DNA from: Prevotella sp. tc2-28
GTDB taxonomy: Bacteria; Bacteroidota; Bacteroidia; Bacteroidales; Bacteroidaceae
Assembly (NCBI RefSeq): GCF_900107705.1
Contig: NZ_FNRE01000009.1
Span: 1-64,000, forward strand
DNA length: 64,000 nt
Reading direction: 5' to 3'
Shown here: in pieces, positions 1,825 to 6,836 of the stretch
Position numbering within the stretch: the stretch's first letter is position 1
Layout: every line of letters starts with the position of its first letter
Translations under genes and position numbers: made by a program
Notes under the pieces: model-generated
The model's input: the letters and a program-made list of their open reading frames with translations, nothing else
Databases searched by the model: none
What the model was told of the DNA's origin: nothing

Positions 1825-3978
1825 CTAGTCAGCAATGGTAAAGTCGAGCTGACGTTTCTCCAAGTTGGCACGCGCCACCTTGATACGCACAGCGTCGCCC
1901 AACTGATACTTATGATGATGGCGACGGCCTACCAGACAGTAGTTGCGCTCGTCGAAGTCATAGTAGTCATCATCCAAGTCGCGCATGGGCACCATGCCTT
2001 CGCAGTGGTTCTCGTCTATCTCGCAATAGATGCCATACGACTGAATGCCGGAGATATGGGCATCGTACTCGTTACCGATCTTGTCTTCCATGAACTCCAC
2101 CATCTTGTATTTGATAGAGTCGCGCTCAGCCTGCTGGGCAACCTGCTCCATGTCGGAACAATGCTCGCACAGCTCTTCATACTTTTCCTGATTAGCCGAA
2201 CGACCTCCGTCCTGATACTTGGTGAGCAGACGGTGTACCATCGTGTCGGGATAACGGCGGATGGGTGACGTGAAGTGGGTGTAATATTCGAAAGCCAGTC
2301 CGTAGTGTCCGATGTTATGGGTAGAATACTTGGCCTTCATCATCGCACGCAATGCCACGGTCTCTATCAGCTTCTGCTCTTTCTTGCCCTGACAGTCCTC
2401 CATCAGCGTGTTCAGCGAACGGGAAATGGCCCCCTTCGTACCACTGGTCTTCATCTTGTAGCCGAACTTCACCACAAACTCACGCAGGGTTTCCAGTTTG
2501 GTGGGGTCTGGCTGGTCATGGATACGGTATGGCAGCGTCTTGGCTTTTGACGGCTGACCTTTACCAGCTGGTTTCTTAGCCTTACCGATACTTTCCGCTA
2601 CGGTACGGTTGGCCAACAGCATGAACTCCTCAATGAGTTGGGTAGCATCATTCGACTTCTTGAAATAGGCACGGACAGGTTTTCCGTTCTCATCAATGTC
2701 AAAGTGAAGCTCCTCACGGTCAAACTTCACGGCACCGCCCTTGAAACGCTTCTCACGCAATTTCTTGGCCAAGCGGTCGAGGGTACGAAGTTCATTGGCA
2801 TAGTCGCCGTCCTTGCCCATTAGGATATCCTGTACCTCCTCGTACGCGTACCTTCTATTACTCTTGATCACCGTGTGAGCAATATGATAGCTCTTGACAT
2901 TGGCTTCTTCGTCCAACGTGAAGATAACACTATAACAGAGTTTCTCCTCGTCGGGACGCAGCGAACAAATGAAATTACAGAGGCGCTCGGGGAGCATCGG
3001 TATGGTACGGTCGACCAGATAGACACTAGTGGCACGCTTCACGGCCTCTTTGTCGATGATAGAGCCCTCCTTGACATAATGGCTGACATCAGCGATATGT
3101 ACACCGACCTCGTACTTTCCGTTTGCGATGGGACGAAAACTCAGTGCATCGTCAAAGTCCTTAGCATCCTTGGGGTCGATGGTACAGGTAAACACCTCAC
3201 GGAAGTCCTCACGACGACTTATCTCCTCCGGGGTAATGCCTGGTTCAATCTTCTCGGCAGCCTCTTCAACCTGTTTCGGATACTTGTAAGGCAGTCCGTA
3301 TTGAGCCAGGATGGCATGCATCTCCACATTGTTGTCGCCCTCTTTACCCAGCACGTCAATCACTTCACCCACGATATTCTTGGAATCCTTCGAAGGCCAC
3401 TGCGTAATCTTGACGACAGCCTTCTCGCCGGTCTTTCCGCCTTTCAGCTTCTTTTTCGGTATCAAGATATCATGCACGAAGATGTTACCCTCAGTCACCA
3501 GGAAGGCATAGTCCTTCTCCACCTTCAGTTTACCAACAGCCTGGTCCATCTTGTGCGAGAGGATCTCAACCACCATCGCTTCCTTGATATGACGCTCACG
3601 GCGAGCCATCATAGCAACCTTCACACGGTCGCCGTTCAGTGCGAACATGGAGTTACGTTCCGAAACGAAGATAGGCTTTCCGCCATCGTCAGGCTGGAAA
3701 GAATTCTTGCCGTTGGCCTTTCGGATAAAAGTACCTTCCTGCACCTGCGTCTTCAGATTCAACCGATAGGAATTATCAGAAGCCTTGGTGAGAAAGTCGT
3801 CCCACGCCATCTGATCCATCAGGTCGACAGCCATCATCTTGACGGGATGCGTATCGAACTTCAACGCTTTGAATATCTGCTTTAACGAGAATGTCTCATT
3901 GGGATTCTGCTGAAACAATGTCTGGAGCATTTCCGCAATCTGTTTCTTGTTCAGTCGTTTGCCTTTTCCTTTACTCAT
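1825..3978 (-). CDS. rnr: Ribonuclease R (RNB-family 3'-5' exoribonuclease)
   Basis: 717 residues, cytoplasmic, degrading structured RNA processively from 3' ends. An N-terminal winged-helix-like segment (first 70 or so residues) is followed by cold-shock/OB domains, then the RNB catalytic domain with TIDPKDAKDFDDALSF, which supplies the metal-binding aspartates, and RYPDTMVHR near its end. The S1 domain at the C-terminus (DAHISGIQSYGIYCEI) binds RNA. A lysine-rich start (MSKGKGKRLNKK) is usual. The start at 3978 lies about 30 bp downstream of a minus-strand -7 box. The long open frames on the opposite strand are shadows of this gene. Confidence 0.96.
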   Translation of the reverse strand: MSKGKGKRLNKKQIAEMLQTLFQQNPNETFSLKQIFKALKFDTHPVKMMAVDLMDQMAWDDFLTKASDNSYRLNLKTQVQEGTFIRKANGKNSFQPDDGGKPIFVSERNSMFALNGDRVKVAMMARRERHIKEAMVVEILSHKMDQAVGKLKVEKDYAFLVTEGNIFVHDILIPKKKLKGGKTGEKAVVKITQWPSKDSKNIVGEVIDVLGKEGDNNVEMHAILAQYGLPYKYPKQVEEAAEKIEPGITPEEISRREDFREVFTCTIDPKDAKDFDDALSFRPIANGKYEVGVHIADVSHYVKEGSIIDKEAVKRATSVYLVDRTIPMLPERLCNFICSLRPDEEKLCYSVIFTLDEEANVKSYHIAHTVIKSNRRYAYEEVQDILMGKDGDYANELRTLDRLAKKLREKRFKGGAVKFDREELHFDIDENGKPVRAYFKKSNDATQLIEEFMLLANRTVAESIGKAKKPAGKGQPSKAKTLPYRIHDQPDPTKLETLREFVVKFGYKMKTSGTKGAISRSLNTLMEDCQGKKEQKLIETVALRAMMKAKYSTHNIGHYGLAFEYYTHFTSPIRRYPDTMVHRLLTKYQDGGRSANQEKYEELCEHCSDMEQVAQQAERDSIKYKMVEFMEDKIGNEYDAHISGIQSYGIYCEIDENHCEGMVPMRDLDDDYYDFDERNYCLVGRRHHHKYQLGDAVRIKVARANLEKRQLDFTIAD

Positions 3979-5080: not shown

Positions 5081-6034
5081 TTGAAGATTAAGGACTTATT
5101 CATCATCGAGAAGAAACCTCAGCGCGGACTGCTGGCAGTGGAATGGATCACCATGAGCTACATGGTGTTTACGTTGCTGATGATGCTTTTCATGTGGACC
5201 AAGCTGGTCAATCCCGAACCCATGCTCTGGGGGCGTTTCCAATATACTGCAGTGACATTGGCCATGTGGGTAGTGTACAGGATGGTACCCTGCAGGCTGA
5301 CCATGCTGGCTCGCATCATCGCTCAGATGGCTTTCTTGGGATGGTGGTACCCTGACACCTACGAACTGAACCGCTTGCTGCCCAATTTGGACTATGTGTT
5401 TGCCCAATGGGAACAAAATCTGTTTGGTTGTCAGCCATCATTGCTCTTCTCTCAGGTAGTTCCCTACGGGTGGTTCTCGGAACTGATGTGCCTGGGATAT
5501 GTGTCGTACTTCCCCCTCATTGCCACGATTACCCTCTACTATTTTTTTAAGCGATACAAAGAGTTCCAACTGGCTACCTTTGTCATCCTGACATCTTTCT
5601 TTATCTATTACTTTATCTTCATCCTACTGCCCGTCACAGGACCTCAGTTCTATTACCTGGCTGTTGGTACGGATAAGATAGCTGCAGGCATCTTCCCCCA
5701 TCTCGGTGACTGGTTTCTGACGCACTCAGAGCGTATGGCAGCCCCCGGATGGAATGAAGGATTCTTCTACCACCTATTGGACATCACCCACGATGCAGGC
5801 GAACGACCGACAGCAGCATTCCCCAGCAGTCATGTCGGTGTCACCACCGTCCTGATGATGTTAGCCCTTCGCACACGCAGTCGCAGGCTCTTCTTCGGCA
5901 TGTTACCATTCTATCTATTGATGTGTCTTTCTACCGTTTACATCTACGCCCATTACGCCATCGACGCTATAGCCGGACTTATTACTGGCATTTTATTATA
6001 CTATATCTTGTGCTTCTGCTACAAAAAGACATAA
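5081..6034 (+). CDS. PAP2-superfamily membrane enzyme, AUR1/inositolphosphotransferase-like
   Basis: About 317 residues with around six hydrophobic segments. PAP2 motifs are FPSSHVGVTT (phosphatase C2) and STVYIYAHYAIDAIAG (C3, with catalytic His and Asp). The latter resembles PAP2_3/AUR1-type phosphotransferases more than classical lipid phosphatases because the usual Arg after Ser is missing. Likely role: transfer or removal of a phosphorylated head group on a membrane lipid. The start is TTG at 5081, 3 bp after the previous stop and in the same frame, so the two genes are separated by one UGA codon; the first internal ATG would remove the conserved N-terminus. The stop overlaps the end of a candidate minus-strand terminator. 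Confidence 0.78.
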   Translation: MKIKDLFIIEKKPQRGLLAVEWITMSYMVFTLLMMLFMWTKLVNPEPMLWGRFQYTAVTLAMWVVYRMVPCRLTMLARIIAQMAFLGWWYPDTYELNRLLPNLDYVFAQWEQNLFGCQPSLLFSQVVPYGWFSELMCLGYVSYFPLIATITLYYFFKRYKEFQLATFVILTSFFIYYFIFILLPVTGPQFYYLAVGTDKIAAGIFPHLGDWFLTHSERMAAPGWNEGFFYHLLDITHDAGERPTAAFPSSHVGVTTVLMMLALRTRSRRLFFGMLPFYLLMCLSTVYIYAHYAIDAIAGLITGILLYYILCFCYKKT

Positions 6035-6098
6035 AAAAATGGGGCTCCGCTGAACCCCTAACCTTTGTTAACCTTAAATCTAATACTATGAAAAACAC
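6033..6098 (-). ncRNA. Candidate small RNA of about 65 nt with its own promoter and terminator
   Basis: On the minus strand a -7 box (TATCTTTG, 6110-6103) is followed about 45 nt later by a strong intrinsic terminator: GGGGTTC-AGCG-GAGCCCC (7-bp stem with one G-U pair, 4-nt loop, 6058-6041) and then ATTTTTTT (6040-6033). No open reading frame of note lies between. The plus-strand reading of the same DNA has a near-consensus AACCTTTG (6060-6067) and a 7-codon frame at 6088-6111, so a divergent leader is an alternative. Function unknown. Confidence 0.5.
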
Positions 6099-6212: not shown

Positions 6213-6244
6213 TTTGGTCGTCAACAAAAAAATCACTACCTTTG
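6213..6244 (+). promoter_or_regulatory. greA promoter
   Basis: TTTG at 6213-6216, 20-bp spacer, TACCTTTG at 6237-6244: a full match to the Bacteroidetes consensus. It predicts a transcript start near 6250, so greA has a leader of about 120 nt, long for this window. Confidence 0.75.
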
Positions 6245-6274
6245 CAAACGAAAATAGGACATAGAGAGATTCAG

Positions 6275-6324
6275 GGATTCCGACGATAAGATGGGTCGGA
6301 ATTCTTTTATTTTTTACGTCCGAC
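6275..6324 (+). promoter_or_regulatory. Terminator/antiterminator-like structure in the greA leader
   Basis: GGATTCCGAC (6275-6284) pairs with GTCGGAATTC (6295-6304) to give a 10-bp stem (one G-U) with a 10-nt loop, followed by TTTTATTTTTT (6305-6315), a textbook intrinsic terminator inside the leader. Directly after the U-run, TCCGAC (6319-6324) can pair with the same GTCGGA (6295-6300), which would break the terminator. The two pairings are mutually exclusive. The arrangement would let most transcripts stop as a short RNA of about 65 nt unless an alternative fold forms. Confidence 0.55.
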
Positions 6325-6328
6325 TTAA

Positions 6329-6370
6329 AATTGTAAATAGAAAAAGTAAAATAGTAAATTGTAAAAGTAT
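6329..6370. repeat. Six degenerate 7-bp units before the greA start
   Basis: Units AATTGTA, AATAGAA, AAAGTAA, AATAGTA, AATTGTA and AAAGTAT run without gaps up to the ATG at 6369. The same frame is open upstream, so an apparent N-terminal extension (KIVNRKSKIVNCKS) is an artefact of the repeat. Confidence 0.7.
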
Positions 6371-6836
6371 GGCTTACATGTCACAAGAAGGCTATGACAA
6401 ACTCATAGCCGAACTGCACCGCCTAGAAGCGGTAGAACGCCCCAAAGCCTCAGCAGCTATTGCAGAGGCACGTGAGAAAGGCGACCTTAGTGAGAACAGC
6501 GAGTATGATGCCGCCAAGGAGGCACAGGCTCATTTGGAAGATAAGATCAATCGTCTGAAAGCGACCATTTCAGAAGCCAAGATTGTAGACACCTCCCGCC
6601 TGAGCACCGACTGCGTTCAGATTCTGACCAAAGTGGAGATGACCAACTTGACCACCAAGGCCAAGATGTCATACACCATCGTCAGTGAGAACGAGGCTGA
6701 CCTGCGTGCAGGCAAAATCTCTATCAAAACCCCGATTGCACAGGGACTGCTGGGTAAGAAGGTAGGCGACGAGGTAGAAATCACCATTCCTCGTGGCACC
6801 ATCAAACTGCGTATCGAGAACATCTCAATTGCATAA
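6369..6836 (+). CDS. greA: Transcription elongation factor GreA
   Basis: 155 residues, the usual GreA size. GreA enters the RNA polymerase secondary channel and stimulates cleavage of backtracked RNA. The N-terminal coiled coil carries the signature EAREKGDLSENSEYDAA, which holds the acidic tip; the C-terminal FKBP-like domain ends in GTIKLRIENISIA. The frame extends upstream to 6291, but those 26 codons are repeat sequence; the ATG at 6369 (MAYMSQEGYD) matches the family. It is followed 2 bp later by a HIT-family gene. The leader holds a possible attenuator. Confidence 0.96.
   Translation: MAYMSQEGYDKLIAELHRLEAVERPKASAAIAEAREKGDLSENSEYDAAKEAQAHLEDKINRLKATISEAKIVDTSRLSTDCVQILTKVEMTNLTTKAKMSYTIVSENEADLRAGKISIKTPIAQGLLGKKVGDEVEITIPRGTIKLRIENISIA

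Follow-up and report, generated by a model that had tools for sequence, protein, structure and literature searches.

A putative promoter-proximal terminator in the greA leader of Prevotella and other Bacteroidota, with no competing RNA fold above chance

What decides how many RNA polymerases reach greA in Prevotella sp. tc2-28, where a hairpin followed by a U-run lies between the promoter and the gene? A reading of the sequence alone had proposed an attenuator, that is, a terminator stem and a downstream antiterminator pairing that exclude each other. We examined the locus in the window, a 64,000-nucleotide stretch of contig NZ_FNRE01000009.1, and compared it with greA leaders from across the phylum.

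The greA gene (6369-6836, plus strand) encodes 155 amino acids and matches NCBIfam PRK00226.1 and TIGR01462, both above cut-off; its product is 99% identical to the GreA of an uncultured Prevotellaceae genome (L032). The predicted greA promoter (6213-6244, plus strand) consists of TTTG at 6213-6216 and TACCTTTG at 6237-6244, which we take to be the -33/-7 promoter type of Bacteroidota, and the start site is assumed to be near 6250. Given this promoter position, the leader is ~119 nt long, so the earlier figure of 120 nt was about right. The order of elements is promoter, 12-bp hairpin, U-tract and greA. An in-frame ATG at 6291, inside the hairpin loop, would add 26 codons to that of greA (6291-6368); it is probably not used as the greA start because the loop varies among relatives. 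We also observed a FopS small RNA (RF04319, 75.2 bits) on the minus strand at 6030-6098, divergent from the greA promoter; of 18 Prevotella loci scanned, 9 have a member of the FopS family next to greA. An action of FopS on the greA leader was considered and is not favoured, since the predicted duplex (-31.5) was matched by 24 of 500 shuffles.

The minimum free energy (MFE) fold of the leader (6250-6368) has -26.4 kcal/mol with a z-score of -2.98, and 1 of 200 shuffles was equally good. It contains the terminator hairpin at 6273-6306 of the plus strand, in which 6273-6284 pairs with 6295-6306 in 12 pairs, counting G-U, around a 10-nt loop (6285-6294). The U-tract (UUCUUUUAUUUUUU) spans 6302-6315 on the same strand and lies partly within the stem base. 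The terminator claimed before greA therefore stands as sequence and as predicted fold, with the stem of 10 bp originally counted extended to 12 pairs with G-U. Its arm pattern, GGATTCCGAC-N(3-14)-GTCGG, has a single genomic occurrence, that in the greA leader.

The hairpin is kept before greA far beyond this species. In the 200 nt upstream of greA we looked for hairpins with a folding energy of -8 kcal/mol or lower and a U-run, which was required, using ten dinucleotide shuffles per leader as background. The survey took in 110 Prevotella loci (some species twice), 37 loci from the family's other genera, 40 from the order's other families and 20 from elsewhere in the class. A terminator-like hairpin was found in 103/110, 34/37, 32/40 and 20/20 leaders, respectively, against 6/1100, 2/370, 3/400 and 4/200 shuffled leaders (0.5-2%). 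Of 20 leaders from the phylum's other classes, 13 pass. The failures comprise seven Prevotella leaders (L028, L082, L091, L098, L099, L107 and L110), three from the family (L135, L144 and L148), eight from the order (L153, L161, L167, L175, L176, L177, L178 and L180) and seven from other classes. By eye, L028, L082, L091 and L099, which are counted as misses, have a hairpin with a mismatch, and several of the seven failing other-class leaders have one with a longer loop, while L130, L160, L164 and L187, which are counted as passes, have a hairpin of another sequence. Some of the other-class hairpins, 110-140 nt upstream (e.g. L249 and L251), could instead end the preceding gene.

That last possibility has to be weighed for the window as well, because the upstream PAP2-like gene (5081-6034) is co-directional with greA and the hairpin could be its ordinary terminator that happens to precede greA. 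However, the hairpin lies downstream of a promoter box in most leaders: TAnnTTTG is found 5-60 nt before it in 98/103 Prevotella, 33/34 family, 21/32 order and 9/20 class leaders, compared with 53/2060, 24/680, 22/640 and 24/400 mononucleotide-shuffled upstream stretches. The low class figure arises because the hairpin often begins within 5 nt of the box; with the box counted at any distance before the hairpin, 17 of 20 class leaders have it. The position behind the box indicates that the hairpin belongs to the greA leader rather than closing the upstream gene, and its place before greA is retained in distant families. Among the other window genes with an upstream gap of at least 60 nt, a terminator was found in 2 of 19, and neither terminator follows a TAnnTTTG box; this control leaves out greA itself, whose start had been called too far upstream at 6291. 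In two leaders of one genus other than that of the window (L130 and L148), greA is preceded instead by another long inverted repeat, which starts GTCATTCTGAAC and has no TAnnTTTG box beside it, as if the repeat had replaced both promoter and terminator.

Many genomes contain a second greA whose product starts MEYMS (here G000:C10:71221-71682, L002; 62% identical) and which has no leader hairpin. Across these paralogues the hairpin was found in 1 of 23 leaders (0/3 and 1/20; one leader, L229, is cut short). The second gene could therefore escape the control proposed for the first.

To the conservation of place is added covariation within the stem. From 159 passing leaders with TTC near the stem foot (101 Prevotella, 30 family and 28 order), redundancy removal left 79, of which L130, L160, L164 and L187 were dropped by hand, giving 75 aligned sequences. 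Over 13 pairs, 95.8% of the cells are paired, and two-sided changes occur in 11 of the 13 pairs (69 cells); none of 500 shuffles reached any of five measures. When the partner strand was slid by 1 to 3 columns, pairing fell to 38-59%, a comparison in which defining the structure on the window's own row favours it over the slid versions. The U-tract is conserved together with the hairpin. At the stem foot, the 3' strand AUUC is kept and the 5' strand wobbles: its two pairs mostly have G on the 5' side against U (46 and 42 of 75), and otherwise A-U (26 and 32). With the U on the 3' side of these G-U pairs, the U-run is one-sided, and we read it as kept for one direction only, which again argues against a terminator belonging to the upstream gene.

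The stem sequence itself is only partly peculiar to greA. A covariance model of the hairpin (R1) has its top match in the genome at the greA leader (44.3 bits), followed by a hairpin with 37.6 bits that is matched on both strands. In the family, 57 of 61 genomes have a match at E ≤ 0.1. For the 58 genomes in which the place of greA is known, the top match lies ≤200 nt upstream of greA in 43 and 213 nt upstream in G170; it lies elsewhere in ten, of which six (G225, G181, G260, G201, G230 and G164) have a weaker match at greA, and four (G160, G197, G211 and G222) have no match to the model. As many of these leaders built the model, their recovery is expected, and what matters is their rank above all other sites of the same genome. 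The model also matches 6 of 20 class leaders (L194, L197, L199, L202, L204 and L208), 0 of 20 other-class leaders and 0 of 23 paralogue stretches. Because model matches fade outside the order while the hairpin persists, the place is more widely conserved than the sequence.

The second-ranking hairpin of this genome, G000:C31:315572-315618, scores 37.6 bits on one strand and 36.9 on the other. It is a two-way terminator whose stem closely resembles the greA one, which suggests a favoured terminator stem in this genome. Such related stems, being ordinary two-way terminators elsewhere, limit how specific the sequence is to greA, and they lend the idea of an upstream-gene terminator some plausibility. 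Set against the promoter box, the retained place and the one-sided U-run, we consider that explanation very unlikely.

We next consider the proposed antiterminator. The letters are there: TCCGAC (6319-6324) and GTCGGA (6295-6300) occur in the window, and exactly the same pairing recurs in one other Prevotella leader, L033. When the 3' arm had to form at least 6 Watson-Crick pairs, 3 or more of them G-C, with the part of the leader that follows the U-tract, such a helix was found in 2/103 Prevotella leaders (the window, L001, and L033), 0/34 in the family, 1/32 in the order and 0/20 in the class. These frequencies equal those obtained by shuffling the downstream stretch (1.6, 1.3, 1.1 and 2.0%, in the same order) or by swapping downstream stretches between leaders (1.7, 0.0, 3.5 and 1.1%). 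A looser count of any 6 Watson-Crick pairs, which missed the window's own TCCGAC/GTCGGA helix, gave 16/103, 3/34, 2/32 and 1/20 leaders, consisting of A/U-rich matches to the stem foot, compared with 208/2060, 111/680, 134/640 and 30/400 shuffles. Forcing the six pairs in the window yields -12.1 instead of -26.4 kcal/mol, a cost of 14.3 kcal/mol, and their ensemble probability is 0.0. In addition, TCCGAC is transcribed after the U-tract, too late to stop release there, and none of 189 leaders has an upstream segment that pairs with the terminator 5' arm. We therefore rejected the antiterminator on its chance frequency, its energetic cost and its late synthesis, and a classical attenuator at this locus is extremely improbable. 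Of the two stems proposed by the sequence-only reading, the terminator is conserved in relatives and the antiterminator is found at chance frequency; the picture of two mutually exclusive folds did not hold, and the same letters are better supported in another pairing.

That pairing is an outer helix around the hairpin, formed by GGAC (6257-6260) and GUCC (6318-6321) on the plus strand, the latter overlapping TCCGAC, with pair probabilities of 0.99-1.0. We compared the outer-helix pairing energy of each leader's own strands with that of strands swapped between leaders. In Prevotella (n = 76), own pairs had -5.17 versus -4.13 kcal/mol for swapped ones, and in other genera of the family (n = 32) -2.94 versus -1.93 kcal/mol; 0 of 2000 permutations reached the difference in either group. 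In the order (n = 32), the values were -1.08 and -1.23 kcal/mol and 1476 of 2000 permutations reached it. The letters differ among leaders, as in ACAGAC/GTCTGT of L024 and AGGGATAC/GTATCTCT of L076. With stricter removal of similar sequences, the permutations reaching the observed value in Prevotella and the family were 0 and 1 of 2000 at a similarity of 0.75, 2 and 12 at 0.65, and 260 and 41 at 0.6. A first, broad test had given 34/103 Prevotella leaders above threshold against 252/1018 swapped and 272/1030 shuffled ones, and the other groups were without notable excess; since the test was narrowed to 10-12 nt behind the U-tract only after inspection of the sequences, the support is partly post hoc. 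We regard the outer helix in Prevotella and the family as likely, but not certain, to be real.

If real, the outer helix is not accounted for by termination, because the polymerase has already passed the U-tract when it makes the 3' strand of this helix. The helix is therefore confined to read-through RNA and may serve the 5' end of the message. This raises the alternative that hairpin and outer helix together are a stabiliser or processing structure protecting the 5' end of the greA mRNA, in which the U-run is incidental. The outer helix encloses the hairpin and withstood the permutations in Prevotella and the other genera, and a role of this kind is also conceivable for a conserved hairpin that has a U-run. 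The outer helix was, however, not seen in the order and fades among very dissimilar leaders, and the U-tract is kept alongside the hairpin, so we regard the alternative as unlikely.

Taken with the conserved place, the covariation and the retained U-tract, these results favour an intrinsic terminator close behind the promoter, within the greA 5' UTR, which probably limits greA transcription, by termination in vivo, without a competing RNA fold. RNA polymerase would start near 6250 and make a leader of about 65 nt; the hairpin and U-tract would then release part of the polymerases, and the remainder would read through into greA. The outcome would be set by the elongation behaviour of the polymerase, not by a competing RNA fold, and GreA itself, through less or more pausing and backtracking, would be the most likely input, giving a feedback as reported for GraL in Escherichia coli. 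From the GraL-like layout and the lack of an RNA switch, we infer that termination is partial and depends on what state the polymerase is in, most likely under the influence of GreA.

In E. coli, about two thirds of transcripts end within the greA leader and yield the GraL RNAs, 37-59 nt long; GreA feedback is reported, and the effect was not seen in vitro (PMC6829880). Like GraL, the element described here is an intrinsic terminator in the greA 5' UTR soon after the promoter. The predicted terminated RNAs have medians of 72, 55, 48 and 39 nt in Prevotella, family, order and class (n = 101, 33, 24 and 17) if transcription starts 6 nt past the box, and are near the GraL lengths. The hairpin begins about 0 to 30 nt past this assumed start, varying among relatives; in Flavobacteriales and other classes it sits right at the start site. 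GraL needs no sequence downstream of the U-tail, and that stretch holds no conserved partner in Bacteroidota. The sequences differ, as the earlier reading had held: model R1 matches nothing in the E. coli greA leader (L214), its one weak hit (3399-3441, 18.7 bits) lying elsewhere, so that the GraL layout is present here with no detectable sequence relation. The Bacteroidota element also differs in having hairpin arms conserved over an order and an outer helix in the family of Prevotella. Control of greA by termination is possibly convergent with that in E. coli.

GraL also acts in trans (PMC6829880), and a 5' UTR-derived RNA, BTnc259, has been seen by Northern blot in B. thetaiotaomicron, its gene not being named in the accessible text of PMC7366714. 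The terminated leader might be made chiefly as a trans-acting small RNA. The loop and the single-stranded 5' stretch are, however, poorly conserved, and no Rfam family lies over the leader, the only matches being below threshold and the best of them on the other strand or eukaryotic; we hold this to be quite unlikely.

Naville and Gautheret (2010; PMC2965389) reported greA-leader attenuators in Proteobacteria as well as in bacilli and Clostridia. They give the greA- and rnk-leaders premature terminators, each with an antiterminator, and name greA among the gene families often controlled by attenuation. The premature terminator between greA promoter and start codon is common to those leaders and ours; the antiterminator given for each of them has no counterpart above chance here. 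The main text of that paper nowhere mentions Bacteroid* or Prevotella, a word search found no mention of greA in PMC8297930, PMC10319736 and PMC7815308, and the open-licence literature, searched apart from supplements, yielded no greA leader from Bacteroidota. The predicted Bacteroidota element joins the greA-leader terminators known from other phyla, without homology to GraL and with no antiterminator above chance.

A wider and tentative extension, which we find rather doubtful, is that across Bacteroidota the terminator behind the greA promoter directly senses transcript-cleavage activity: early elongating polymerases would halt or backtrack at the U-tract, and how many of them pass would depend on the amount of GreA. 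If so, the same layout in unrelated sequence in other phyla would represent the repeated invention of one elongation-factor feedback loop without an RNA switch.

If the terminator works as proposed, premature termination would set GreA levels in Bacteroidota just as it does in E. coli, although the RNA is unrelated. The control by an elongation factor of termination on its own message would then become testable in a second, distant phylum, where the natural variation in hairpin distance is at hand and the hairpin-less greA paralogue would provide a natural control.
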